Of a stretch of 64,000 bases of DNA, positions 2,797 through 31,137 are shown piece by piece. Source of the stretch: Oscillospiraceae bacterium (GTDB taxonomy: Bacteria; Bacillota; Clostridia; Oscillospirales; CAG-382); the NCBI GenBank assembly GCA_015064485.1, contig SVSD01000001.1:152989-216988 (forward strand). Reading direction: 5' to 3'. How positions within the stretch are numbered: position 1 is the first letter of the stretch; every line of letters starts with the position of its first letter. The notes under the pieces were generated by a model that was not told where the DNA came from, ran no database searches, and saw nothing but the letters and a program-made list of their open reading frames with translations. A program made the translations under genes and the position numbers.

Positions 2797-2845
2797 CCAA
2801 AAAATCGTTTGCGTAGGGCAAAAAATGCAAATATACGCTGATTTC

Positions 2846-3006
2846 GGATAGCTCTCCGCATTTCTGCGACAACAGGGGGGATATTATTCCCGACTGCCAG
2901 TCCGGCGCTTTACCATACACCGGCTTCGGCACCTGCCCCTTTCACATATTCACTCCGGCAAGAGTTTTTGAAAATATGCTACTATTGACAAAATGCACCT
3001 CTATCG
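2846..3006 (-). promoter_or_regulatory. Lysine riboswitch (L box) aptamer
   Basis: Read on the minus strand, the leader begins with GATAGAGGTGC and continues with GAAAGGGGCAGGTGCCGAAG, a CTGGCAGTCGGG segment and a closing GGAGAGCTATC. These match the conserved core of known lysine riboswitches in order and spacing. GATAG at the 5' end pairs with CTATC at the 3' end to form helix P1. It lies between a strong promoter and dapA and is coupled to the terminator at 2769-2796. Confidence 0.94.
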
Positions 3007-3014
3007 ACTTACAT

Positions 3015-15085: not shown

Positions 15086-15697
15086 TTATTCTTTGCTTAA
15101 CACTTTTTTCTGCCAGGATCTTTTTCCGCATTTGGGACATTTCATTTTTCTGGTTCTTCCTATATGCGGTGCAAGATTCACAGCCTTATATGTTGGCACA
15201 TATCTGTGTTTACAGTATTTACATTCGTAATATCCTGCTATCTGTTCAATTCTGACAGCAAAGCATATACCTGCAAATGCCGGAACAAATCCGGATAAGA
15301 CAAGAACTGTTCTTTGCCATTCTTCCATCGGAAGCAATACTCCGATGACTATCGGTACAAATAAAACGATCAGGGAAAGGATCCCGATTACCCATTCAAA
15401 CAGCAGCAGCCTTCTGTCGCTTTCTTCTTTTTCTTTTATCATTTCAATAAGCTTGTTTTCTATCTCTTTATTATAGTTTTCCGTTTGGATTACCTCCCCG
15501 CTCAACAAATCGTTTACTGTAATTTTAAGAATACTGCACAGTTCAAGCATAATGGAAGAATCGGGCAAGGATTTTCCCGTTTCCCATTTTGACACTGCGC
15601 GGTCTGTAATATTCAACTTTTCCGCCAACTGCAATTGTGTCAAATTTGCACTTTTTCTGCATTCGGCAATGAACTTTCCTGTTTTTTTCTGATCCAC
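15086..15697 (-). CDS. XRE-family regulator with membrane segments and zinc ribbon
   Basis: The 203-residue protein has an N-terminal helix-turn-helix (about 6-62; QLQLAEKLNITDRAVSKWET is the classic Cro/CI-type unit), a charged linker, two hydrophobic segments at about 102-122 and 131-150, and a C-terminal part with Cys159, Cys162, Cys187 and Cys190 that looks like a zinc ribbon. This suggests a membrane-tethered DNA-binding protein. The start is GTG 15697 with GGAGG upstream. An inverted repeat at 15753-15787 lies ahead of the gene and could be its own operator. The targets are unknown. It ends after the carbohydrate operon, but no direct link can be read. Confidence 0.85.
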   Translation of the reverse strand: MDQKKTGKFIAECRKSANLTQLQLAEKLNITDRAVSKWETGKSLPDSSIMLELCSILKITVNDLLSGEVIQTENYNKEIENKLIEMIKEKEESDRRLLLFEWVIGILSLIVLFVPIVIGVLLPMEEWQRTVLVLSGFVPAFAGICFAVRIEQIAGYYECKYCKHRYVPTYKAVNLAPHIGRTRKMKCPKCGKRSWQKKVLSKE

Positions 15698-15937: not shown

Positions 15938-15965
15938 CAAAACGCCGGAAAAATCCGGCGTTTTG
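15938..15965 (-). terminator. Terminator of the carbohydrate uptake operon
   Basis: A perfect 12-bp stem (CAAAACGCCGGA) with an AAAA loop is followed on the minus strand by U-rich sequence. It closes the operon that starts near 28790. Confidence 0.93.
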
Positions 15966-15985: not shown

Positions 15986-17026
15986 TCAACCAACGATACC
16001 CGAACGCTCGATACCTTCAACAAGCGCATTCTGAGCAAAGAGGAATACAACAAACAAAGGAGCGATGACAAGCAAGCCCGCAGTATTGAGTATCGCCGAT
16101 TCATACAGAGTCTTCGCAACAGAATCTGTATTGATGGTTGTCGGGATATCGATAAGGCCGGGGAGAAGCTTGGGACCTTGCGTTGTATAGAAGAGTGTGG
16201 AATAGAATGTATCTGTCCACTGCCACGAGAAAGCAAACATAAATATTGTTACCATCATAGGCACTGTAAGAGGAAGGATGATGCGGAAATAGGTTTTGAA
16301 TATACCCGAACCGTCAACATATGCTGCCTCTTCAAGTTCATCAGGCACACCCTTATAGAACTGTCGGAAGATAAAGATATAAAGACCATTCTTGAAACCG
16401 ATACCTGTCAAAGACAAAAGGAGCATCGGCCAATGGGTATTTATCATATCAATACCGTTGGGAAGTCCCAAAAGTCCGAGAATTCCGTAAAAGTCAAAAT
16501 ATCTGAACTTCATAAACATGGAAGCCATAAGTGTTCTCTGGGGGATAACCATTGTGAGAACCACAAGTGCAAACACAAAGTTTCTTCCCTTGAACTTGAA
16601 TTTCGCAAGACCATAACCGATAATTGCAGTTATAAGTGTCTGAATAACAGCGGTAATAACAGAAAGGTATGCGGAATTTATAAGGCGTTCCAGATAATCG
16701 TTATCAAGAATGATAGCTTTATATGTATCAAGAGTAGGATAACGAGGAATCATCTTAACAGTAGGATCTACGAAATCCTGGGGGCTGAAGAAAGATGCAG
16801 ATATCTTTGTAAAGAAAGGATAGATTATGATATATGAGATACCGACAAGAAGTACAAATCTGAATATCTTCCACACAACATCCACAAGGAACTGCGGGGA
16901 GAATACACGAAGTCTGAGTCTTGCCCAGAAACCGAGTTTCTGATACTCTTTGAGCTGGTCAGCGTTGTGAACATAAAGGTTGGGGTTCACTTCGGGCTGT
17001 TTGTATTTTTTTCTGAAATTAAACAT
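15986..17026 (-). CDS. Carbohydrate ABC transporter permease (MalG type)
   Basis: This is one half of a heterodimeric sugar permease in the inner membrane. The 346 residues contain an N-terminal cytoplasmic stretch of about 50 residues and six membrane segments. The EAA loop that docks the ATPase is visible as EEAAYVDGSGIFKTYFRIILP, cut here to its core residues EAAxVDG and ILP. The MalG family is usually about 280 residues; the longer N-terminus is a feature of this copy. It is the last gene of the operon and pairs with the MalF-type gene 18 bases upstream. No ATPase gene follows, so a shared ATPase of the MsmX kind is probably used. Confidence 0.9.
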   Translation of the reverse strand: MFNFRKKYKQPEVNPNLYVHNADQLKEYQKLGFWARLRLRVFSPQFLVDVVWKIFRFVLLVGISYIIIYPFFTKISASFFSPQDFVDPTVKMIPRYPTLDTYKAIILDNDYLERLINSAYLSVITAVIQTLITAIIGYGLAKFKFKGRNFVFALVVLTMVIPQRTLMASMFMKFRYFDFYGILGLLGLPNGIDMINTHWPMLLLSLTGIGFKNGLYIFIFRQFYKGVPDELEEAAYVDGSGIFKTYFRIILPLTVPMMVTIFMFAFSWQWTDTFYSTLFYTTQGPKLLPGLIDIPTTINTDSVAKTLYESAILNTAGLLVIAPLFVVFLFAQNALVEGIERSGIVG

Positions 17027-17044
17027 TTAGATATCCTCCTTTCA

Positions 17045-17992
17045 TCAGTCTTTGCGCTGGTAGAACACAAAGAACGAGAGAAGGAATGCTACAAGTCCCA
17101 AAAGTGCAATTACCAGTATGAAATATACCCAAGACATCGCAGTCGAAAGAACTCGTCCGCCTGATGCTGTAAGATAGATTTCGTTGATGTAAGTCATTAC
17201 CTGATTTGACTGCGATGTAAACGAGTCAATAACAGTATAAATTGCGTTAACAAGGATCATTGGAGAAATCATCGGGAATGTGATCTTCCAGAATGTTTCC
17301 CAAGGTGTCGCACCTTCCATCTTACAGGATTCGTAGATGGAGGGGTTTATCGACTGGAGGCCTGCAAGGAAAACAAGCATCTGTACACCGGAACGGTTTA
17401 CAATATTGAAGATACTGTTTACAAGGCCTACAACATATTGAACAAGTTCTGTTCCGACAACCATATTGCCGAATAGCTTCTGGATGTCTATCGCTGAAAG
17501 AATTTCATTTCCTGCATTTCCCTGAGCACCTGTATCAATACTGCCGGAGCTCATATAAGCTTCCATCGCGTTGCTCGATCCGAGAGAATCGATGATACCT
17601 GTAGAAATAATAACGGGAACGAAGAATATTGCTCTGAATACCGCACGGCCGAGCATCTTCTGATTAAGCACGATCGACATAAAAAGAGCGAATATTACGA
17701 TTGCGGGAACATCAAGAATAAGCTGTTTAAGGCTTTCTGTGAGAATTCTAACAAAGTTGGGGTCTGTGAAAAGTGCATTCTGATAGTTTTCAAGACCAAC
17801 CCACTCGGTGGAGTAGCCTCCACCGGGAAGGATTGTGATTTTCTGGAAACTAAGAGTAAGCGAATCTGCGATTATAGGAAGATAGATCGCGATCATACCT
17901 ACTACAAAGGGTATTACGAAAAACCAACCTGCTCTTGCCTTTTTGGAGTCAAGCGCTGCGGGTTTCTTTTTTGCCTTAACTGTATTTGCCAT
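17045..17992 (-). CDS. Carbohydrate ABC transporter permease (MalF type)
   Basis: This is the partner of the downstream MalG-type permease. ATG 17992 is chosen because AAGGAGG lies 9 bases upstream, giving 315 residues; a longer start at 18019 would overlap the previous gene. Six membrane segments are present, with the EAA motif as ESCKMEGATPWETFWKITFP near the C-terminal third. An extra hydrophilic segment of about 50 residues (AMEAYMSSGSIDTGAQGN region, around 145-195) interrupts the usual pattern and would lie outside, perhaps contacting the binding protein. It is the second permease pair in the same operon, which is unusual. Confidence 0.9.
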   Translation of the reverse strand: MANTVKAKKKPAALDSKKARAGWFFVIPFVVGMIAIYLPIIADSLTLSFQKITILPGGGYSTEWVGLENYQNALFTDPNFVRILTESLKQLILDVPAIVIFALFMSIVLNQKMLGRAVFRAIFFVPVIISTGIIDSLGSSNAMEAYMSSGSIDTGAQGNAGNEILSAIDIQKLFGNMVVGTELVQYVVGLVNSIFNIVNRSGVQMLVFLAGLQSINPSIYESCKMEGATPWETFWKITFPMISPMILVNAIYTVIDSFTSQSNQVMTYINEIYLTASGGRVLSTAMSWVYFILVIALLGLVAFLLSFFVFYQRKD

Positions 17993-18011
17993 TCGAAATC
18001 TACCTCCTTCC

Positions 18012-21000
18012 TCAGTCATTTACGACTATGAATCCGAGAGAAGGAACCTTTGTACCTTCATAATCATAGTCTTTTGCATCATAGTTGAGTATAAATGTCT
18101 TACCGTTTGAATATTCAACTCTGACTACATTTTCTTCGATTCTTTCGTGATCTGAAATTGTACAAGTCTGAACATCCTTCAAAGCTTCGTTCAATGCCTT
18201 GTAAGTTTCGACCATATCTTCCTTCCAGATGTTATACTTGATGGAATAATACTTGCTGAAACGGCTGAACTTTTTAAGTTCGGAAGTATTGTCGACATCT
18301 TCATCCGTATAGGAAAGAATAAAGTAAGGGCTTGCACCGTTTTCGATGCACTTAAGTACACTGTATTCGTAGTCACCGTCAAGGTTGATTGCGCTTCCTG
18401 TGTATGTTACAGAACCGTGAAGCACCGTTCCGAGGAAAGGTATTGCTTCTGTTGTATAGATATTACGGCTGCTGTCAACGGGAAGGTCTGTGATGTAATC
18501 AACATATTTATATGTATATGCGTTACCGCCGCTTACCATTATTTCATTGCCGTCTTCTTCTATTGTTGCAAGAAGCTTGGAAATAGAATCCTTTGCTTCT
18601 TCACGGGTAATAGCATCGTCCTTGCTGTTATCGGAGCTCAAGTCTGAGCCCAAAGTTGCAACCGAAAGGCCGCCGATACCGAATCCGTTATACTTCTTGC
18701 TTATGTTATTGTAAAATTCCAACATCTTGTCTGCATTTACAATAAGAATGTTGTCATTTTCAAAGCCCTGATAAAGAGCGCTGTAAATGCGGTGAGAAGC
18801 TGCCTTGTTATCAACAGTTTTAACAGCATCTGTCTTATAGTCAAAGCCGTCAAAAGAACCGTCTTTTATAACATAAGTGAAATCAAGGTCGGGGAACAAG
18901 CCGATACCGTTTTCTTTTGCATATTCGCTGAGTGCTTCAAGCCCCTTTTCGCCGCCTATTGCTTTTTGAACATTAAGCTTTGCGGGAGTTGTATGTTCCA
19001 TACCACCGTTGTACCAACCCGTAAGTTTAAGGTTGATGTTTGAAACACCTGCTTCTTTGAGCTGTTCAAGCATTGTCTTGCCCTGCTCAAATGTTGTAAG
19101 CTTTGTGTTTTCGGTTACAGGGAAACCGAATACTTTCTGAGTTGTTTTGATAGAACCGAAGTTTTCAAGGAACAACGGTATATCGTTGTCGATCGCTTCG
19201 CTCTTTACGATTTCACCCTTGGCAATAAGATATTCTCTCAAGGAAGTTGCCATTCCCATATAATTTGCATCATCGCCGTTAAGCATAAAGATACGGAAAG
19301 TATAGTTTCCTGTATATCCTCTTTCTACGCCTACTGTCCATTTTGCATCGCCGCTTGAGGAAATACCTGTAAGCGCATATGTATCGGACATTTCAGGGTA
19401 AACTGTTGCAAATGCGGAATGGTATTCATGAGTAATACCGCCGTGAGAAGTAGAAAGCTGAACAAGAGAGTCGCCTTCTTCAACATATGCAAGGAATGCA
19501 GTTCTTCCGTCTGCTTTGGGGTTTGTCGGAAGTGTTATGTTTTCGCGGGCTATCAAAGAATCTATAATAAAGTTCTTTGCAGCAAGCTGAGCCGCTTTAT
19601 CTTCTGCGGAAAGGGAGTTGTTTGATCTGATAACATCAATATCAGGGCTTGTATACGGCTTTGTTTCAGCAGTAGGATCGAATGTATCGTCTTTTGCTGT
19701 CACTTCAATACCGTGTGCAAGGCTGTATTTGATATCTTCGCTGTAAATATCCTTACCGCCGATAGTTTTGATATATTCGGGGTTAAACTTTTCAAGGACA
19801 TATACGGGTTTGCCTTCAGCATCGGTTATAAAGTAATTTTTGAGAGTAACTGCAGGATCGACTGTGTCGATTATCATATAGTTTTCATCTCTCTTTACGC
19901 CGAATGCGGGAAGACGCATTGCTTCTTTGTTCTGACCGCTTGCCGCATGGTAAGCATAGTCCTGACCGTAAAGCTTGGAGCTGATTACCTTTGTTTCTGT
20001 GCCGATATCTTCAAATCTTACGATTGTACCGGAACCGTCGGGGTAGAAAGTATAACCTGTTTCGCCCTGTTTACCTGCTCCGAGGAAAGGAAGTATCTGG
20101 AGCTGAGTAATATCAAAAGCAGACTTGTTATAACTTATACTCTTTGCAGGAACTCTTATCTTGATACCGTTATCGTCAAGATAGTATTCAATAGCCATCT
20201 TAAAGAGCGGAGGGTTAGTTTCGTTGCCCTGGTATTCAAGAAGCTCATGATCCTGCTGGAGCTGATCGTAGGTGTAATCTGTGTACTCCTTGATGAGTTC
20301 TTCGATTTCGTACTTAGGTCTTGTTGCATCCTTTTCGTTGAATTCATAGAAATCGTATTTCTGGAGAATAGGATACTTTATAAGAATGTCGCGCTTTGCG
20401 CTTTCTGATGTGTAAGTATCAGGGTCGCGGAGCTGATAGTAGGCAAGAAGCTTTCTCTTGTCCTTTTCTACCTGCTTTACAAGCTGTTCCTGAGTCATAC
20501 CGGCTTCGGGAGCTTTATTTTCAATAGTAAACTTGTTGAGAATTTCAGATTCGAATCTTTCTCTTTCCATCATCATAGGAACAAGAATTCTTGATTCCTG
20601 ACGGCCGACAGTGTATTCAACGCGCACGCCGCCGCGAATACGGCTGATAGAAATCTGATTGTTTCTTGCTGCCTGTTCGAAGGTGGTATAAGTATTGCCG
20701 TTCTGACCTCTTACATAATCGAAAACAAACTGAGAAAGGAGCTTTGCCTTTGTTTCCTTGTTTGCCTTTGAACCTCCCACATCGTAAGGAGTGGATGTAA
20801 GGATCTGTCCGCTTGCCTTTTCGATAAAAGCAACAGCACCTGTGAATTTATCAATAAGTATTACATGAGTTTCATTTTCGTAAATATAGCTCATTGTAAC
20901 TGCGACATATTCATGAGGGCTCTGATAATATGCGGAATAATAGCTGTCAAAAAGAGCTGCGAGACTTTCTTCATTTTCTTCGCCGGGAGCGGGTATTAAA

Positions 21001-21344
21001 GTCATTCTCTGTGCGATAGAATCACGGAAAAGGATCTTACCGTCCGCACCGTTTTCAAGAACGAAGTAGATTTCGCCGAAATTTTCGCTGTCATTGTTTG
21101 TGTCGGCATAAAGTGCGACACCCGAGCAATCAGCGATCTTTGTAAAGCCGAGAGATATGATCTGCGACGCAGTTACGGGGATCTTTGCTCTCTGCTGTGC
21201 AACCACAGCGTCAGACTCGCTCATACTTGTTGTATCAACTGTTTCGTATGTTGCTGTTCCTTCCGTATCCGCAAGAGCAGGAATAACACATCCTGCAACC
21301 ATAAGGACTGAAAGGAAAAGCGATATTAAATTTTTCTTATTCAT
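18012..21344 (-). CDS. Secreted DUF5696-like protein, possible TIM-barrel glycosidase
   Basis: The 1,110-residue product has a signal peptide (1-27) that contains VAGC at 16-19, so it may be a lipoprotein, or be cut after ALA. The start at ATG 21344 follows GAGGTG. The N-terminal 600 residues look beta-rich, with HGIEVTAKD and the FYPDGSGT segment. From about residue 700 alternating strand-helix units such as MLEQLKEAGVSNINLKLTGW and ENGIGLFPDLDF resemble a TIM barrel as in clan GH-type hydrolases. I match the whole to DUF5696 from memory. The position between permeases suggests an enzyme that trims the imported glycan outside the cell. Catalytic residues cannot be assigned. Confidence 0.75.
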   Translation of the reverse strand: MNKKNLISLFLSVLMVAGCVIPALADTEGTATYETVDTTSMSESDAVVAQQRAKIPVTASQIISLGFTKIADCSGVALYADTNNDSENFGEIYFVLENGADGKILFRDSIAQRMTLIPAPGEENEESLAALFDSYYSAYYQSPHEYVAVTMSYIYENETHVILIDKFTGAVAFIEKASGQILTSTPYDVGGSKANKETKAKLLSQFVFDYVRGQNGNTYTTFEQAARNNQISISRIRGGVRVEYTVGRQESRILVPMMMERERFESEILNKFTIENKAPEAGMTQEQLVKQVEKDKRKLLAYYQLRDPDTYTSESAKRDILIKYPILQKYDFYEFNEKDATRPKYEIEELIKEYTDYTYDQLQQDHELLEYQGNETNPPLFKMAIEYYLDDNGIKIRVPAKSISYNKSAFDITQLQILPFLGAGKQGETGYTFYPDGSGTIVRFEDIGTETKVISSKLYGQDYAYHAASGQNKEAMRLPAFGVKRDENYMIIDTVDPAVTLKNYFITDAEGKPVYVLEKFNPEYIKTIGGKDIYSEDIKYSLAHGIEVTAKDDTFDPTAETKPYTSPDIDVIRSNNSLSAEDKAAQLAAKNFIIDSLIARENITLPTNPKADGRTAFLAYVEEGDSLVQLSTSHGGITHEYHSAFATVYPEMSDTYALTGISSSGDAKWTVGVERGYTGNYTFRIFMLNGDDANYMGMATSLREYLIAKGEIVKSEAIDNDIPLFLENFGSIKTTQKVFGFPVTENTKLTTFEQGKTMLEQLKEAGVSNINLKLTGWYNGGMEHTTPAKLNVQKAIGGEKGLEALSEYAKENGIGLFPDLDFTYVIKDGSFDGFDYKTDAVKTVDNKAASHRIYSALYQGFENDNILIVNADKMLEFYNNISKKYNGFGIGGLSVATLGSDLSSDNSKDDAITREEAKDSISKLLATIEEDGNEIMVSGGNAYTYKYVDYITDLPVDSSRNIYTTEAIPFLGTVLHGSVTYTGSAINLDGDYEYSVLKCIENGASPYFILSYTDEDVDNTSELKKFSRFSKYYSIKYNIWKEDMVETYKALNEALKDVQTCTISDHERIEENVVRVEYSNGKTFILNYDAKDYDYEGTKVPSLGFIVVND

Positions 21345-21361
21345 AACAGCACCTCTTTCAA

Positions 21362-23572
21362 TCACGCGGATCTGTATGTCAACTCTAAAATGATGTTGAA
21401 TACAAAGGAGAATATCTTACCGACAAGGCTCGAGAAGAGTACGACGATAAACATAATAAATGCCATACCGACGATAGTACCCAAAGATGTGAGCACATTC
21501 TTGCCGAGTGTATAATCGTGGATCGTCTGCATACCGAAGAAGATAAGGAAACCGACCCAGAAATAGCAAACATTCATCGCAAGTGTAATAAGCGAAACTT
21601 CACTTGCTGTTACAAAGTTGGAAGCAATTGTTGTAGCTACGATGAAGTATGCAAGCGGGAAAAGTGCATAACAGGTTGCAATATAAATATCCTTAAGACT
21701 TCCCTCGCCGTCAAACAATGTTGTAAGACACCAGTTTGCGATTACCCAAAGGGCAATAGGAAGAATAACAGAAAGTGCAACCGAAATAAAGTTTGCTGTA
21801 TTCTGTTCGGGGTTTACAATATATCCGCGGCCTATAGACTGGTAGATATAGGCAAGGATCGTAATACCGAGAATTAAAGTTGCACCCTTTACACTTGCAC
21901 GGTTTTCGTGCTTTATATCCCAATATCCGTCAAACGGATGGAAGATAACATGGAAACCGTAAAGGTATTCTCTCAGCAAGGTTCTCTTAACCTTGGATGA
22001 CTGACCTTCTTCGTTTACCTTTGCGGCAAATTTAAGAAGCTTTGATGCAAGTACGCAAATTACGATTACTGCAATAGGAATAAGGATAATGTATTTCGCG
22101 AGCGCTTCTTTACGGAGCTCGTGGTACGCATCGGAATAGTTTGCTGTATCGTAAGCATACTTATACATATCCATAGCCTTTGTCCACTGTCCCTGACGGT
22201 AATAGCATTTACCGATACCTACATAGGACATATCAAAGTTGGAGTTTCTCTGAAGGATATTTGTCCAGTCTTCCTGGGATTTGTCATAAAGACGGAGCTT
22301 GTTGTTTATAAGTGCCTGAGAAAGGAGCTGGCCGTATTCGGTACGCTTATAGATCGTAATATTTCTGCTTGTTGTATCAAGAGCAAGGATACTTGTTCCG
22401 AGATAGTCAACAGCTGCAATCGTCTGAATGTTACCGAGCTGGTCGCCCTTATCACCGAAGATATAAAGGAGCTTGCCTTCGCTGTCGTATGTATAGAACT
22501 TCTGTCTTGTGTTATCAACGATAGTCCAAGTACCTTCCTGAGCGGGGCCTATTGCCACATCTATAACCTTGGAAGGGCCTGTGATATCGGAAACTGTTGT
22601 TTTATACGACTGAACATTAACTTCGCCGGACGGAGGGAAGAAGCCTGTACGCATCATAACATCCTGTCCTGCCGAGTTGAGCTTTTTAACAGGAGCGTTG
22701 TCGCCGCTTCTGGATCTGCTTGTGATAGCAGAGAGCTGGTCACTTGCGCTTATTGCAGAAGTTGTAGCATAAACAAATCCCGCTTCGTCAATTGTAATGT
22801 TATTATATTCTGTTGATACATTTCTTACAGCCTGTTTTCTCTGTTCAGCTGTCTGAAGAGATCTCCAAAGAATATCCCAAACGGAAAGGCTGTTTGACTG
22901 TGCGCCCAAAAAAGCCTGGAACACACCGTCGGCAGTCATTGCGATAATACCTTGATATGAAGCGGAGGAAACTGTGTAAATTCTGCCCGAAGCATCAACC
23001 GCAACGGCAACAGGTTTAAACGCAGTACCTTCGGCAAACACATCGCCTTCGGGTTCGCCGTATGTCTTTACAAAACCGTAGTCGTAAAGACCGGTTGTTT
23101 CGTTCAATGTCTTATCATTGAGGTCGAAAACAAGTATACGGTTGTTTGCTGTATCACATACATAAAGATGGTTTTTGTTGTCGATAAAAACGCCTGTGGG
23201 TTCGGAAATCGAGTCCTTTACGCCCCATTCATTTATAAAGGCTGTGATAATACCCTCTACCTTATATTCTGAATTTATAATGATAACTCTTTTGTTTCCT
23301 GTATCGGAAAGGCAGATTGTAGCGTCTGCCTGGCCGTTTTCATCAGTAAATTCATGAACATAAAAGTCCTTGGGGCCTTTGAGCGGAACTGCAAGTCCCA
23401 AAGATTCGCTGTCGATAACTGTAAGGGGTACATACGCATGAGGAGATTCCATATAAGAACCGTCTATATCATATGTATATGTGGAATAGGGAGTAATAGC
23501 CGAAACGGGAACGGAACCTACCAAGAGGAGAAGAACCGCAACGAGGGCCAGTACAGATTTAATTTTTTTCAT
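21362..23572 (-). CDS. NHL-propeller, TPR and YIP1-type membrane protein
   Basis: The 736-residue protein begins with a signal peptide or anchor (1-25). Residues of about 60-420 contain NHL-type propeller repeats (for example EPTGVFIDNKNHLYVCDTAN and KPVAVAVDASGRIYTV). A short TPR-like stretch follows (YVGIGKCYYRQGQWTKAMDMY, about 450-485), then a membrane segment at 494-513 and a YIP1-like block with four or five membrane segments (about 560-736). The propeller would face outward. The function is unknown. It sits after the first permease pair and 17 bases before the DUF5696-like gene, so it may be a scaffold or channel-like partner of the transporter. Confidence 0.8.
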   Translation of the reverse strand: MKKIKSVLALVAVLLLLVGSVPVSAITPYSTYTYDIDGSYMESPHAYVPLTVIDSESLGLAVPLKGPKDFYVHEFTDENGQADATICLSDTGNKRVIIINSEYKVEGIITAFINEWGVKDSISEPTGVFIDNKNHLYVCDTANNRILVFDLNDKTLNETTGLYDYGFVKTYGEPEGDVFAEGTAFKPVAVAVDASGRIYTVSSASYQGIIAMTADGVFQAFLGAQSNSLSVWDILWRSLQTAEQRKQAVRNVSTEYNNITIDEAGFVYATTSAISASDQLSAITSRSRSGDNAPVKKLNSAGQDVMMRTGFFPPSGEVNVQSYKTTVSDITGPSKVIDVAIGPAQEGTWTIVDNTRQKFYTYDSEGKLLYIFGDKGDQLGNIQTIAAVDYLGTSILALDTTSRNITIYKRTEYGQLLSQALINNKLRLYDKSQEDWTNILQRNSNFDMSYVGIGKCYYRQGQWTKAMDMYKYAYDTANYSDAYHELRKEALAKYIILIPIAVIVICVLASKLLKFAAKVNEEGQSSKVKRTLLREYLYGFHVIFHPFDGYWDIKHENRASVKGATLILGITILAYIYQSIGRGYIVNPEQNTANFISVALSVILPIALWVIANWCLTTLFDGEGSLKDIYIATCYALFPLAYFIVATTIASNFVTASEVSLITLAMNVCYFWVGFLIFFGMQTIHDYTLGKNVLTSLGTIVGMAFIMFIVVLFSSLVGKIFSFVFNIILELTYRSA

Positions 23573-23587
23573 TTGTATACCCTCCTT

Positions 23588-24463
23588 TTAGTCCTTCATA
23601 CCGGATGTTGCCATTGTTTCGATGATGTTACTCTGAGAAACAACGAATACCGCAATAGGTACGATCATCATAATAACTGTAGCTGCAGCCGAAGCACCCG
23701 AACGGACAATACCGCCGGCAAGTATCTGCTGGATAGCATAGTTGAATGTTTTAAGTTCTTCACTATATATATAAATGGAAGAACCTGCATTCCAAAGTCC
23801 CTGGAAACAGTAAACGATAAGTGTAAGCCAAGCGGGTTTAACCATCGGCATTACTATCTTCCAATATATAAGTATTTCCGGTGCACCGTCAAGACGGGCT
23901 GATTCAAGAACAGAATCGGGAACCGATGAATCCATAAACTGACGCATAAGGTAAAGACCGAGTGTTGAACCGAATGCGGGAATTATGAGCGCCCAGTATG
24001 TATCAACCATACCGAATGCGGACATTGTGATATAGTTTGTGATACTTGTAACTGTAGCATGGAACATAAGAGAAAGCTCGATCATTTTGAACATCAATTT
24101 GCGACCCGGGAAAGCTATCTTTGTAAGAGCATAAGCCGCAAGAGAGGCAAAGAAGAGATGTCCGAATGTACCTGCAACAGATACAAAAGCGGTATTGAAT
24201 ATGTATCTTGAGAAGGGCACATATGAAGTGCTCATCAAACGGAAAAGTTCTGTAAAGTTTTTGAGCGTAGGATTACGCACAAAGAAACGAGGGGGGAACA
24301 TCCACAGCTCATCAAGAGGTTTGAGTGCCTGCATGAAAGCGTAGAGCATAGGCAAGAACATAAATGCACCGAAAAGGATAAGCACTATATTAATACCGAT
24401 GTCTCCGCCGAGAGAGCGGTTAAGATGGTGAGATTTGAGTTTGAATTTGAAATTTTTAGCCAT
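23588..24463 (-). CDS. Carbohydrate ABC transporter permease (MalG type), first pair
   Basis: This 291-residue permease has six membrane segments and the EAA loop as ESARLDGAPEILIYWKIVMP. Its length and N-terminus (LNRSLGGDIGINIVLILFGA) match the MalG/LplC group. It lies 2 bases before the end of its partner gene's stop, so the two are translated together. It probably forms a heterodimer with the protein from 24465-25418, and the pair passes substrate delivered by the large binding protein encoded first in the operon. Confidence 0.92.
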   Translation of the reverse strand: MAKNFKFKLKSHHLNRSLGGDIGINIVLILFGAFMFLPMLYAFMQALKPLDELWMFPPRFFVRNPTLKNFTELFRLMSTSYVPFSRYIFNTAFVSVAGTFGHLFFASLAAYALTKIAFPGRKLMFKMIELSLMFHATVTSITNYITMSAFGMVDTYWALIIPAFGSTLGLYLMRQFMDSSVPDSVLESARLDGAPEILIYWKIVMPMVKPAWLTLIVYCFQGLWNAGSSIYIYSEELKTFNYAIQQILAGGIVRSGASAAATVIMMIVPIAVFVVSQSNIIETMATSGMKD

Positions 24464-24464
24464 C

Positions 24465-25418
24465 TTACTTACCTACCTTTGAGAGCATTCTGTTGATTAC
24501 CATGTTACAACCGATCATCATAATAAACAGCACTGTTGCGATTGCGGATGCATAACCTACTTCCCAGCGGGCTCCGCCGTAGTCTTCAAGATGGTGCATC
24601 ATAGTCCATGCACAGTAGCTGGGTGACGGGAAACCGCAAAGAGCAGTAACAACGCCGCCGAAGCCGAAGGAACCTGTGATAGACATAATAGCTGCGAACA
24701 TCATCTGGTTTTTCATAACGGGAAGTGTAACAAACCAAAGTTCCTGCCAACGGTTACGGATACCGTCAACCGCAGCGGCTTCGTAAAGGCTCTTGTCAAC
24801 AACCTGGAAACCTGCGATAAACGACAGGAAGGAAGTACCGAGCGATGTCCAAAGCGCTACCATGATTACAAGAGGCATAATATACTCTGTATCCTGGAAC
24901 CAAAGGATAGGTGTGTTGATAATGCCGAGCTTCATAAGGATACCGTTTGCATATCCGTACGAGTCGGACGAGAAGAGCACCTGCCAGATAAGATATACCT
25001 GACCCGAAATTGAAGGTGCATAATATATAAGTGTAACTATTGATCGTACTTTCGGTGTCAGTTCGTTGATAAACCAGGCGAACATAAGACAGAGAAGATA
25101 CGAAACAGGACCTGTAATGACAGCAAACACGAATGTGTTCTTGATGGCGATAAGGAAAATATCGTCATCAAGGAAAAGTCTTACATAGTTATCCATAAAC
25201 AGGAACTTCGGCATTTCAAGCATATTGAAAGATGTGAAGCTCAAGAACAACGAAAGTATAACGGGGGCAACCGTAAAGGTAAGGAATACAAGGAAGTAGG
25301 GTGCAACAAGAAGATAGCCGACTTTATTGACTACCATCTGACGGCGTATCCACTGCCATTTTGTTATATCCTTTCTTACCTTAGGAGCCGCTTTATTTGC
25401 GACAGTCTTTTCAGACAT
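24465..25418 (-). CDS. Carbohydrate ABC transporter permease (MalF type), first pair
   Basis: ATG 25418 (MSEKTVANKAAPKV) is preferred: AAGGAG lies 8 bases upstream, whereas a GTG three codons earlier would sit within that site. The 317 residues hold six membrane segments and the EAA loop YEAAAVDGIRNRWQELWFVT. This is the LplB/MalF side of the first transporter pair. It follows the binding-protein gene by 19 bases and precedes the MalG-type partner by 1 base. The mature protein needs an ATPase not encoded in the window. Confidence 0.92.
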   Translation of the reverse strand: MSEKTVANKAAPKVRKDITKWQWIRRQMVVNKVGYLLVAPYFLVFLTFTVAPVILSLFLSFTSFNMLEMPKFLFMDNYVRLFLDDDIFLIAIKNTFVFAVITGPVSYLLCLMFAWFINELTPKVRSIVTLIYYAPSISGQVYLIWQVLFSSDSYGYANGILMKLGIINTPILWFQDTEYIMPLVIMVALWTSLGTSFLSFIAGFQVVDKSLYEAAAVDGIRNRWQELWFVTLPVMKNQMMFAAIMSITGSFGFGGVVTALCGFPSPSYCAWTMMHHLEDYGGARWEVGYASAIATVLFIMMIGCNMVINRMLSKVGK

Positions 25419-25437
25419 TGATTTCACTCCTTAATTA

Positions 25438-28400
25438 TTATTTCTTGACGACATATCCGTCTTCTCCGATGATTCCCATTTCAAGGAGTTCATCTGTTGT
25501 ATAGAAGTCGTACTCTGCGCGTTTTCTTGTGATTTCCTTGTTTATTTCGTCTATGTAATAAAGCATAGCGTCAGAGGGGACGTCGCCGTTATCATAAGCG
25601 TCAAGGAATGCAAAGTTTGTATATCTTGCTACGATGTAGTTACCGGGAGTCATAGGAGTTCCCATAAGGTGGCCAAACTGATCTGCGAGGTTATCTCTTT
25701 CCTGAGCCGACCAGGGCTGACCGAAGAGAGCCTGTTTGTTTGCTGTTGTATATTTTGCAGCAGCACCCATAATAGCAACCTGTTCTTTACCGAAACGCTC
25801 CTGAGCTTCAGCGCCGACCCACCACTTGATATATTCCCAAGCGTTCTGATCGTTCTTCGCATCGCCCATAATCATTATCGCCGATACTGATGTAGGAGCA
25901 ACTGCGCTGAATGTAGGATTGCCGTTTTCGTCAACGGTAACTGTACCGGGGAGTCTTATAAATTCCCAAAGTCCCTTGATTTCGGGAGCGAAACAGAGAA
26001 GCTGGTTACACAAAGAGTAGTCTGCAATACCGATAGGCATTTCACCTGTTCTGAAACGGTTAGCAAAATCGTAGGAAACAGGCTGAGAGTGAAGTGTGAA
26101 GAGTTCACACATTGTCTGGAACGCATCAAGAGCTGTGTTGGAATCAAGGTTTGTTGCGTGACCTACCGCGCGGATATCGCCGGCACCCTTATAATAAGGT
26201 TCGTTCATCTGATACATAAGAGTCTGTGTAACAGTCTGCGAGAAGCCCATTGTCATATTCTTATCTGCAAGCTTGGGGATTATCACATTGAACACATCAT
26301 CCCATGTTTTAGGAACATCAAGTCCGAGTTCGATAAATATGTCCTTACGGTAGAAGAGCATTTCAAAAGCCTGAGTTACGGGAACGCCGTAAACCGCTTC
26401 TATATTGAGTTCGTCTTCAGCATCTGCATTGAATACGGAAAGACCTGTCCATGCAGATTCGTCAAACCAACCCTGACCTTCATAATCGCCGATGCCTCGC
26501 ATTTCGTCGAAGCCTTTATATTTATATGTACCGTCTTCATTTCTTTCGGCAAGATTCTTAACAGCATTTCTTACACCGAAGCCTGTCGGGTCCGCATCGG
26601 TGGAAACATCGGGACCGATACCTGCAAGTGTCGCAGGAAGAAGTGTACCCGCCGCAACAAGCTTGTAATTTACGGCAATTTTTGTTTCCGCTGTAAATTC
26701 GTCAACCATTTCACGCATGATCTGCGCCTGGTCACGGCCTGTTGTAAGCCAAACTTCAACTATCTGACCGTCGTACTTGGAGAAGTCTTCCATAGCACCG
26801 TATGTATTATAGTCTGTAAAGAATGACATAAAGAACGACTGGATTTCGAACCAGATTGTGCTGAAAAATCCTGCTTCGCCCTTGGGAAGTTTATTGTCAA
26901 CGCCCTGAACAAGAATGTAGTCCATCTGGAGAGGCTGGTTTCTCGATTGGAGAAGCCATGTACCGATAGAACCGATATATGATTTAAGAATGGAGAGGTT
27001 TGCGGCAACCTTTGTTTCGTCGTTACCCATAACCTCAAGAGTATATGCAACTCTTTCAAGAAGAACCGAATGTTCACCCTTTTCGCCGATGATCTCTTCG
27101 AATCTTGCAAGAACTGCTCTCAAGTTTTCGGCTTCCACACGCATACCGCGCATTACTTCGGGGATGAGCTCATTGAAGCCGTAGTCTGTATATGTATCAG
27201 GTTCGGGACCTGTTATCATAAGGATCTGTCTGTAATACTCGTTCATACGAACAAGGCTTTCGTCAACGGCAAGAAGTTCACTTGCAAGTCTTCCGAGAAC
27301 ACATTCAAGTTCGATTGTATACTTCTTTCCGCCTTCAAAATAGAATTCAAGCTGTTCAACGATAAGATTGCCGTTTTCATCACGGTACTGATGGTTTAAA
27401 GGATCCGCCTTCCAGTCATCAGAATAGTTGAACTGCAAGAACTTTGCTTCTTCGAAAGGATATTCTCCGTTTATCTTTAAAGAACGGGATGCGAATATAC
27501 CTGCGTAAAGCGACTGTCTTGCACGGGGAATGATATAGTAGAAACCGCTTTCCGGAACTTCGATTTCGTAGCTTATCCACTGACCTGCAATCTGCCACTT
27601 TTCACCGCCGATAGTGTTTACAAGAGTAATACCGGGGCTGCTGGGCTCTGTCAAAGGAGAAGTTTTGTCGCCAACAGGATAGATAACCTGATCGGAGGTT
27701 GCAACAGGAACTTCTGCCTGAATCTTTATAAAGCTTTCGGCGGGAGCGGATTTTGCGCCCATTGCTTCGTATGCTTTATGATATTCTTCGTAAGACTGAA
27801 GCTTATCGTCAACGAAAACTTCTACTTCACCGTAAAGTACAGGTTCGCGGGAAGAGTATATCTCAATAGTATGTACTCCGTCACCGTTGTCGCCGAGTCC
27901 GAAATAGAAGAGGAAGCTTTCATCGTAGAATGCATTCGAGTCGCGAAGCACTTCTTCACGCCATATCGGATCTTCATATTTCTTCGAACGGATTTCGTTT
28001 GATGAAATATCAAGACGGAAAGCACGGCCGTATTCGTCGGGCTGTATAAGATTGCCGTCTTTATCTGTTGCGGCATGATCCTTCCAGACACGGGAGAAAG
28101 CAATATTTCTCGCATCCTTGAAAGGAACTTCGCCGTCGATCTTTATAACTCTTTCGATGGCAACTGTGTTTCCTGCAACGCTGTTGTAAGCACTGTAGTC
28201 GTTTTTATCAAGTTCCGTGGGAGCTGCAATGATGTTGTTTTCATCATCGTAGTAAAGGCTCGCAAAAGGATAGTAAGGCACACGGATATTATAAAAACCG
28301 GGCTTATCAACCTTGATCTTGTAAACAGCGGTACTGCCGTCTTCGGCCAGAACATATTCGGAAAGTCCCGATACAAGTCCTTCGGGGTCTTCTTCTTTTG

Positions 28401-28725
28401 TCGACAAAACTCCGTTTGTATCGTAGAGAACTTTTACCCCGTCAGACGATGCATCAAGGTCAAGAACAGCCTTTACCGCATCGGGACGGTCATTCTGGTC
28501 GAATTCTACAACGCCGTCGGCTTTGTAGATCTGCTTGTACTCGTCGTATGTGGTAGAGTTGAGGAGCTCTTCCATTTCGTCGAGCGAATTTTCCGGTGCC
28601 ACAATAACATCGGAAAGTGCGGTTTCATCTTTGTCTGCAAGCACTGCGGGCACGGACTGTACAGCCATGGCGGCGAAAAGCAGCAGTGCAACAAGTTTTT
28701 TGAAACCTTTTGCATTCTTGTTCAT
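25438..28725 (-). CDS. Large secreted protein: two CBM-like modules plus ABC sugar-binding module
   Basis: The start ATG 28725 (MNKNAKGFKK) follows AAGGAGG and gives 1,095 residues, two to three times a normal sugar-binding protein. After a signal peptide (1-31, cut after VLA) come two beta-sandwich-like modules, at about 95-320 and 335-480. They have the pattern YKIKVDKPGFYNIRVP and WISYEIEVPESGFYYIIP, seen in CBM6/CBM35-type domains. A helical region follows, and from about 653 a full family-1 type solute-binding module (EVWLTTGRDQAQIMREMVDEF, YGVPVTQAFEMLFYRKDIF, TWDDVF). There is no lipobox cysteine. It opens the operon, and probably catches a glycan and hands it to the permeases. Confidence 0.85.
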   Translation of the reverse strand: MNKNAKGFKKLVALLLFAAMAVQSVPAVLADKDETALSDVIVAPENSLDEMEELLNSTTYDEYKQIYKADGVVEFDQNDRPDAVKAVLDLDASSDGVKVLYDTNGVLSTKEEDPEGLVSGLSEYVLAEDGSTAVYKIKVDKPGFYNIRVPYYPFASLYYDDENNIIAAPTELDKNDYSAYNSVAGNTVAIERVIKIDGEVPFKDARNIAFSRVWKDHAATDKDGNLIQPDEYGRAFRLDISSNEIRSKKYEDPIWREEVLRDSNAFYDESFLFYFGLGDNGDGVHTIEIYSSREPVLYGEVEVFVDDKLQSYEEYHKAYEAMGAKSAPAESFIKIQAEVPVATSDQVIYPVGDKTSPLTEPSSPGITLVNTIGGEKWQIAGQWISYEIEVPESGFYYIIPRARQSLYAGIFASRSLKINGEYPFEEAKFLQFNYSDDWKADPLNHQYRDENGNLIVEQLEFYFEGGKKYTIELECVLGRLASELLAVDESLVRMNEYYRQILMITGPEPDTYTDYGFNELIPEVMRGMRVEAENLRAVLARFEEIIGEKGEHSVLLERVAYTLEVMGNDETKVAANLSILKSYIGSIGTWLLQSRNQPLQMDYILVQGVDNKLPKGEAGFFSTIWFEIQSFFMSFFTDYNTYGAMEDFSKYDGQIVEVWLTTGRDQAQIMREMVDEFTAETKIAVNYKLVAAGTLLPATLAGIGPDVSTDADPTGFGVRNAVKNLAERNEDGTYKYKGFDEMRGIGDYEGQGWFDESAWTGLSVFNADAEDELNIEAVYGVPVTQAFEMLFYRKDIFIELGLDVPKTWDDVFNVIIPKLADKNMTMGFSQTVTQTLMYQMNEPYYKGAGDIRAVGHATNLDSNTALDAFQTMCELFTLHSQPVSYDFANRFRTGEMPIGIADYSLCNQLLCFAPEIKGLWEFIRLPGTVTVDENGNPTFSAVAPTSVSAIMIMGDAKNDQNAWEYIKWWVGAEAQERFGKEQVAIMGAAAKYTTANKQALFGQPWSAQERDNLADQFGHLMGTPMTPGNYIVARYTNFAFLDAYDNGDVPSDAMLYYIDEINKEITRKRAEYDFYTTDELLEMGIIGEDGYVVKK

Positions 28726-28788
28726 TCGCAAAATTCCTCCTTGGTTTGCTGATGGAGCAGCACGGCACAAAGCCGCCTGCTATATCTT

Positions 28789-28840
28789 ATTATATAAAAT
28801 CTGTGCAAATTACCTTTCCGGGATTTTTCATATCCCGAAA
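28789..28840 (-). promoter_or_regulatory. Promoter and candidate operator of the carbohydrate operon
   Basis: On the minus strand a perfect TATAAT (28789-28794) has no recognisable -35 at 17 bases (AAAGGT). An inverted repeat, CGGGAT with ATCCCG spaced by 7 (28819-28837), overlaps the place of the -35. This is what an activator- or repressor-controlled promoter would look like. A leader hairpin (CGGC with GCCG, about 28762-28776) follows before the first gene. Confidence 0.5.
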
Positions 28841-29453
28841 GCGGTTCAGACTTATAAAAATGCGGCAAAAATGCGCAAGACCACACCTGTTTTTCACATT
28901 TTTCTGCCGTTTTTTCAACAGAAAAAATTTAAAAAAGGGTAAAAAAGAGCGCAAAGATGCCTTTGTTACATATATAGAATATCATAAAGCCCTTTCTTTG
29001 TCAAGGCATCCACACCCCCGACACACCGCCGACACCCAGCTTTCACATTACGACAAAAACTGTGTTTTTTTGTGCGAAAGCGTGTTCGCTGTTTTTTACA
29101 CCATCTAAAAATTGCATAAAATTTATCAATGGAATTTATAACAGTTTCCAATCTATGCTTATAACCCCTTTATTTTCAAAGGCTTTGCTCTTTCTTTCCA
29201 AAAGCATTTATTACAAATATATAATTTTCAAAACCATAAATAATATATTCATAATTAACAGAGCCTTTCAAAACATCAGATTCTGTTCTATTTATATGCC
29301 ACATTTTGCCATTTAAGGCGGTGTTTTCTTGTTTGTTTTTAACAAAATCAGAGGTCGTTTTTCTACGCCTTGTTAAAAATGACGAATTTTTCTTTTAAGC
29401 TTTCGTCATTTTTAAAAGCATATTTTTAGCACAAATTCATTCTAAATCGGCAT
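28841..29453. other. Non-coding gap of about 610 bases
   Basis: No credible gene is seen on either strand; short frames lack binding sites and have unlikely composition. The stretch is AT-rich with T and A runs. One hairpin, AAAAATGACGAA with TTCGTCATTTTT (29375-29413), could be a terminator in either direction, but nothing recognisable lies before it. A small RNA is possible and unproven. Confidence 0.6.
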
Positions 29454-29485
29454 AAAAAATCCCCTTGCACAAAAAGTGCAAGGGG
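29454..29485 (-). terminator. Terminator after groEL
   Basis: A perfect 10-bp stem (CCCCTTGCAC) with a 5-base loop is followed on the minus strand by six U. Confidence 0.95.
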
Positions 29486-29505
29486 GAGCTTATTTGTGTT
29501 GCCGA

Positions 29506-31137
<1,632 letters not shown>

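Follow-up and report, generated by a model that had tools for sequence, protein, structure and literature searches.

The window, that is the whole stretch of 64,000 nucleotides analysed here from an Oscillospiraceae bacterium, carries on its minus strand seven intact open reading frames (ORFs) at 15986-28725, which make up one tight operon. The genes are transcribed in the order LecSBP, MF1, MG1, NHL-TPR-YIP1, DUF5696, MF2 and MG2 (Table 1), with junctions of 10, 1, 15, 17, -8 and 18 nt between successive ORFs. A GGAGG ribosome site precedes the ATG of LecSBP at 28725, and no strong internal terminator was seen on the minus strand of the operon. The firm evidence for a single operon is the spacing together with the terminator after MG2; the promoter-like site is only suggestive as the operon promoter, and matches of this kind were about equally frequent in shuffled sequence. 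Pfam matches in the operon were to SBP_bac_1, BPD_transp_1 (four times), NHL, Yip1, DUF5696 and, weakly, TPR. The original prediction, made from the sequence alone, had described these parts as one operon without an ATPase. The parts were recovered by Pfam, the single operon agreed with the tight spacing, the end hairpin and the lack of a strong internal terminator, and no ATPase gene was present inside the seven-gene operon.

Table 1. Genes and signals of the operon in the window, listed in the direction of transcription.
Feature	Position	Strand	Basis
Promoter-like site TTGACA-17-TATTCT upstream of operon	28976..29004	-	Consensus scan only
LecSBP, 1095 aa	25438..28725	-	Pfam SBP_bac_1 (E=7.8e-18); N-terminal profile; AF2 model
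MF1, MalF-type permease of pair 1	24465..25427	-	Pfam BPD_transp_1; own clade; EAA loop present
MG1, MalG-type permease of pair 1	23588..24463	-	Pfam BPD_transp_1; own clade; EAA loop present
NHL beta-propeller, TPR and YIP1 membrane domain protein, 736 aa	21362..23572	-	Pfam Yip1 (1.8e-13), NHL (3.6e-8), weak TPR
DUF5696, large secreted or anchored protein, 1110 aa	18012..21344	-	Pfam PF18952 (E=2.5e-162); GH129 fold
MF2, MalF-type permease of pair 2	17045..18019	-	Pfam BPD_transp_1; own clade; EAA-like loop ESCKMEG
MG2, MalG-type permease of pair 2	15986..17026	-	Pfam BPD_transp_1; own clade; EAA loop present
Intrinsic-terminator-like hairpin after MG2	15938..15965	-	Strong; 12-pair stem and T run

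The NHL-TPR-YIP1 protein combines an exported propeller and a hint of TPR with a YIP1 membrane domain, in which an alignment of homologues revealed the conserved motifs HPFDGFWDLKHE and NWCLTTLFDGEGS. In Paenibacillus, NHL and YIP1 are encoded by two separate genes.

In the region 15986-31131 the cassette is located between the rpsL-rpsG-fusA-tuf genes and groEL, and in a locus of the same genus (L052) it likewise adjoins EF-G/EF-Tu genes. Just downstream of the operon terminator, 15086-15697 encodes a protein resembling HTH regulators, which has membrane segments and a C-terminus rich in cysteine. A lysine riboswitch (84.4 bits) was detected on the minus strand at 2841-3011.

The binding protein and the two permease pairs

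LecSBP consists of a signal sequence, two CBM35/CBM6-like beta domains, a helical coiled-coil bundle and a C-terminal family-1 solute-binding protein (SBP) domain. In the AF2 model (pLDDT 84) the C-terminus matched oligosaccharide-binding SBPs, such as 5ysf and 5ysb; by Pfam match and by fold this is the family-1 SBP expected of a CUT1 importer. The N-terminal half of the window protein gave no confident Pfam match. Relatives of this half matched Pfam CBM_35, CBM_6 and Golvesin_C, and the N-terminal profile identified in the PDB the CBM35-type module of cycloisomaltooligosaccharide glucanotransferase (E=3.4e-11). The earlier description of LecSBP as CBM-like therefore holds at the level of profiles. 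The helical bundle matched many designed coiled coils, which is no sign of kinship. Four genomes of one family devoid of the cassette (G066, G109, G145 and G174) encode proteins of ~460-560 aa matching the LecSBP N-terminal region.

The four permeases make up two pairs of the MalF/MalG heterodimer type with EAA loops, as in CUT1 importers, and the EAA-like pattern was found in 39/41, 40/41, 31/41 and 31/40 of their sequences. In a tree of 171 permeases, made by a quick method and with some support values of only 90, MF1, MF2, MG1 and MG2 each had a single origin and formed a clade of their own, which argues that both pairs are ancestral parts of the cassette. The possibility that pair 2 belongs to an unrelated transporter, named as a threat to the original prediction, was rejected on the same four clades.

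CUT1 importers that share MsmK commonly have no ATPase gene in their operons (PMC8579813), and deletion in Anaerocellum bescii has shown that its ATPase-less CUT1 importers depend on a shared MsmK (PMC8579813; PMC12838199). The genome of the window organism contains about 20 ABC ATPases. The sole UgpC/MsmK-like ATPase identified is located on another contig (G000:C6, ~36.2-37.3 kb) inside another ABC importer operon; since that operon carries its own permease pair, sharing with the cassette is assumed. By analogy, the cassette is probably powered by a shared MsmK/UgpC-type ATPase encoded elsewhere. Another MalF/MalG-type pair without an adjacent ATPase was observed in the same genome (L231, 2749-10221, on G000:C4), next to an HlyD/biotin-lipoyl-like protein (726 aa) and an 808-aa lipoprotein SBP.

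The DUF5696 protein and GH129 glycosidases

DUF5696, for which a GTG at 21365 is an alternative start, is related to the GH129 glycosidases (NagBb, 5wzn/5wzr; ZgGH129, 5opq) in both fold and sequence profile. Searched against the PDB, a profile built from 30 homologues gave GH129 matches in three stretches (5opq, E=3.4e-10; 5wzq, E=3.8e-7). The eleven best PDB matches of the AF2 model (pLDDT 79) were all GH129, followed by GH101, and the TM-score against GH129 structures was 0.68-0.74 by target length. Unlike these glycosidases, DUF5696 is encoded together with a membrane transport machine and has no recognisable nucleophile and acid/base pair. It matched PF18952 only and not the GH129 family PF11308, for which the window organism's own genome gave no match either. 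A profile restricted to the DUF5696 barrel, searched against the PDB, and a plasmid search for GH129 returned nothing useful, nor did a genome scan with a diverse alignment, for which no conserved stretch was found.

The nucleophile of ZgGH129 was placed by way of the D486N mutant entry 8rzk, which differs from the wild type at chain position 469; D469 corresponds to D486 in 5opq numbering. E500 (NGTEHG, at the end of strand 5) we take to be the acid/base, by analogy with the GH101 mutant E796Q, known from the title of its PDB entry, and with Asp435/Glu478 of NagBb. In an hhalign comparison of the two barrels (local E=1.1e-6), D469 and E500 stood opposite non-conserved residues. Among 154 DUF5696 proteins, no conserved Asp or Glu was found at the equivalents of D469 or E500, the alignment being locally weak and the position uncertain, and no Glu was conserved near the end of strand 5. 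What is conserved is Asn 941 (numbering of the window protein) near the end of strand 5 in 142 of the 154, Asp 905 of the barrel in 144, Trp 777 in 143, and, strongly, a PDGSG motif. E1001, conserved in 95%, was set aside as a candidate catalytic acid: it lies on a helix in the model, and NagBb has LLNGGAPYL there. Given the low alignment confidence in this region, the safe statement is that a GH129 catalytic pair is not recognisable in the DUF5696 sequences.

We consider that hydrolysis has probably been lost. Trimming of the glycan at the surface, as first proposed, is not supported, whereas capture is, by a GH129 fold whose catalytic pair is not recognisably conserved. The alternative is that DUF5696 is an active exo- or endo-glycosidase using residues other than the GH129 pair, so that the machine would catch and trim a surface glycan before import. 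The fold, which extends over most of its length, and the conservation of Asp 905, Trp 777 and PDGSG speak for such an enzyme; we nevertheless judge it unlikely, given the non-conserved residues at the D469 and E500 equivalents and the nearby Asn 941, albeit in a weak alignment.

A few relatives of DUF5696 were found outside the cassette. A GH129-like protein (PF11308) in another genome (L230, 2-2533, G353) also matched the C-terminus of DUF5696 weakly and is a possible bridge between the two families. Short DUF5696 paralogues of ~565 aa occur away from the cassette in genomes of the same genus (L074, 8760-10457; L075, 9237-10934; L076, 4940-6634), and several genomes have short DUF5696-related matches with an in-frame TAA inside. 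A 680-aa protein of the window organism's genome with a weak PF18952 match was rejected as a paralogue, as it is a GH13 alpha-amylase.

Distribution, submodules and neighbouring genes

The cassette was found in about a tenth (~10%) of the sampled species of the phylum. PF18952 was above cut-off in 43 of 398 species and, separately, in 46 of 60 relatives. Of the 398 genomes, 41 had a strong match to full-length DUF5696 (E below 1e-90), and the NHL-YIP1 profile matched exactly these 41, the species not being independent of one another. The LecSBP N-terminal profile matched the same 41 genomes and two more (G156 and G198), which have LecSBP without the rest of the cassette; in G155 the LecSBP match was partial, at a contig end. 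In the window organism's family, full-length DUF5696 was detected in 32 of 37 genomes.

Most of ~155 further loci have the seven genes in the same order; these loci come from the taxonomic order of the window organism, Paenibacillus, Cohnella, Bacillaceae, Acetivibrio and others, and named carriers include many Paenibacillus, Cohnella, Neobacillus, Lederbergia and Acetivibrio alkalicellulosi. An additional lipoprotein SBP (SBP2) preceded the seven genes, as SBP2-LecSBP-MF1-MG1-NHLYIP-DUF-MF2-MG2, in 56 loci and followed them in 9, and was absent from the order in 28. Many of the remaining variants miss one gene where the simple ORF caller had picked a frame on the opposite strand. With such recurrence the gene order is not due to chance, and chance clustering was rejected by the phyletic co-occurrence together with the order across the ~155 loci. 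The neighbourhoods that the original prediction named from Paenibacillus and other Clostridia were found again among relatives, and its concern that the genes might rarely cluster was answered by clustering in most of these loci.

Two submodules may be distinguished, A (LecSBP, MF1 and MG1) and B (NHL-YIP1, DUF5696, MF2 and MG2). In several genomes the block NHLYIP-DUF-MF2-MG2 is placed ahead of LecSBP-MF1-MG1, and in some, including the f82 genomes, B occurs alone beside SBP2 with LecSBP loci elsewhere. As A and B swap order or separate, DUF5696 and YIP1 are tied to pair 2, and SBP2 to B. This bears on whether the operon encodes two independent, co-transcribed importers, A (LecSBP with pair 1) for long glycans and B (SBP2 with pair 2 and helpers) for short products. 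The separation of B beside SBP2 in the f82 genomes and the EAA-like loops kept in all four permeases would fit such a pair of importers. It appears rather unlikely, as A and B adjoin each other in most loci throughout the phylum and share genomes even when unlinked, and the window's relatives keep B without an adjacent SBP2. We lean slightly towards one device rather than two.

SBP2 was found beside the cassette in most relatives outside the window's lineage, and the premise of the original prediction, one binding protein per system, needs correction accordingly. In one locus (L114, 10525-18000) a run of SBP2-like genes stands right after the cassette, with six ORF hits, of which two probably represent a single gene, either broken or mis-called. 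In loci of the window organism's family, SBP2 was not found next to the cassette; the family's only SBP2 match (L065, 52 bits) was distant and on the opposite strand.

Outside the window's lineage, the flanks of the cassette hold glycosidase genes from many families, which supports the carbohydrate role originally proposed. Loci outside the window's taxonomic order had in their flanks two GH26 genes with a GDSL esterase and a GH2 mannosidase (L164), GH9 (L184), GH95 (L216) and GH30 (L207), as well as GH26, GH43, GH3 and GH35. In a pooled scan of 96 flanking proteins, GH2, GH3, GH10, GH26, GH43, alginate lyase and LacI were among the top families. The 33 flanking proteins from the window's lineage were elongation factors, AMP-binding enzymes and others of mixed function, and their top families included no polysaccharide glycosidase. 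In the window organism's family no glycosidase, regulator or SBP2 adjoins the cassette, and only the seven-gene core is present. Thus the combination of transporter, glycosidase and regulator typical of Gram-positive polysaccharide utilization loci (PULs) is found in many relatives and not in the window or its family. A scan of 33 secreted proteins, covering ~54% of the bases of the window organism's genome, listed only one GH-like protein. That the core in the window's lineage might recycle or sense the cell's own surface glycan and no longer feed on diet glycans is improbable, although the single copy in most family members, the housekeeping neighbours, the lack of adjacent glycosidases or SBP2 and the few secreted glycosidases seen would suit it, because none of the features indicates an envelope glycan, about half of the genome was sampled, and cross-feeding on glycans released by other organisms would be just as good an explanation.

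A probable core for glycan capture and import

Every cassette part with a known relative belongs to the CUT1/PUL kind. With the CUT1 importers that share MsmK/MsmX, e.g. Athe_0595-0598 of Anaerocellum bescii, in which two SBPs serve one permease pair, the cassette has in common a family-1 SBP, a MalF/MalG-type heterodimer and an operon free of ATPase (PMC12838199; PMC8579813). It differs from them in its two permease pairs, both fixed, in the fusion of its SBP with a coiled coil and CBM-like domains, and in the NHL-TPR-YIP1 and DUF5696 proteins, all of these parts being inherited together. As in Gram-positive PULs, the cassettes of relatives lie beside a LacI-type regulator and glycosidases, but the core is much larger than one SBP with one pair, and the window copy has neither glycosidase nor regulator. 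Among 5.39 million open papers, none with the term DUF5696 was found, nor any description of the cassette or of YIP1 or NHL together with ABC transporters.

Taken as a whole, the best explanation, and a reasonably likely one, sees the cassette as the core of a machine of several parts for glycan capture and import; that the cassette imports glycans at all is very likely. The CBM-like arms of LecSBP would hold a long glycan, and its SBP domain would deliver the glycan end or an oligosaccharide to pair 1. DUF5696, with hydrolysis probably lost, and NHL-TPR-YIP1 may retain chains on the outer face of the membrane or pass them on, acting together with pair 2, which in most relatives would have its own exchangeable lipoprotein SBP2. 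Both pairs would be energised by the shared UgpC/MsmK-type ATPase. Glycosidases may be plugged in beside the core to suit the glycan, the core alone being retained in the window's lineage; SBP2 and the varied glycosidases beside the cassette elsewhere support such a modular glycan-uptake core.

In the PULs of Bacteroidota, the SusCD core is likewise a transport core that is conserved and recurs next to varying glycosidases. SusCD is a TonB-dependent outer-membrane porin, whereas the cassette would be an ABC importer in single-membrane bacteria, and they share no homologous proteins. A bolder proposal, which we hold to be doubtful, is a class of ABC import supercomplexes in Bacillota, a Gram-positive counterpart of SusCD, in which both pairs would act as one device and a GH129-derived pseudo-glycosidase and the propeller-YIP1 protein would clamp or thread the polysaccharide for processive uptake.

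The cassette presents a fixed set of ~7-8 proteins, with three families lacking an assigned role, and its neighbours include glycosidases that act on mannan, on xylan-type glycans and on others. Should the cassette prove to be a general glycan-uptake core, it would account for the import of large glycans by single-membrane bacteria of gut and soil, provide transporter annotations for hundreds of genomes and make DUF5696 a GH129-fold glycan-handling family with directly testable catalysis. Genome G046 contained six DUF5696 copies (L040 and L058-L062), most of them in full cassettes and with different enzymes nearby (GH127, GH78, GH2 and GH31), and lends itself well to working out which cassette goes with which glycan.
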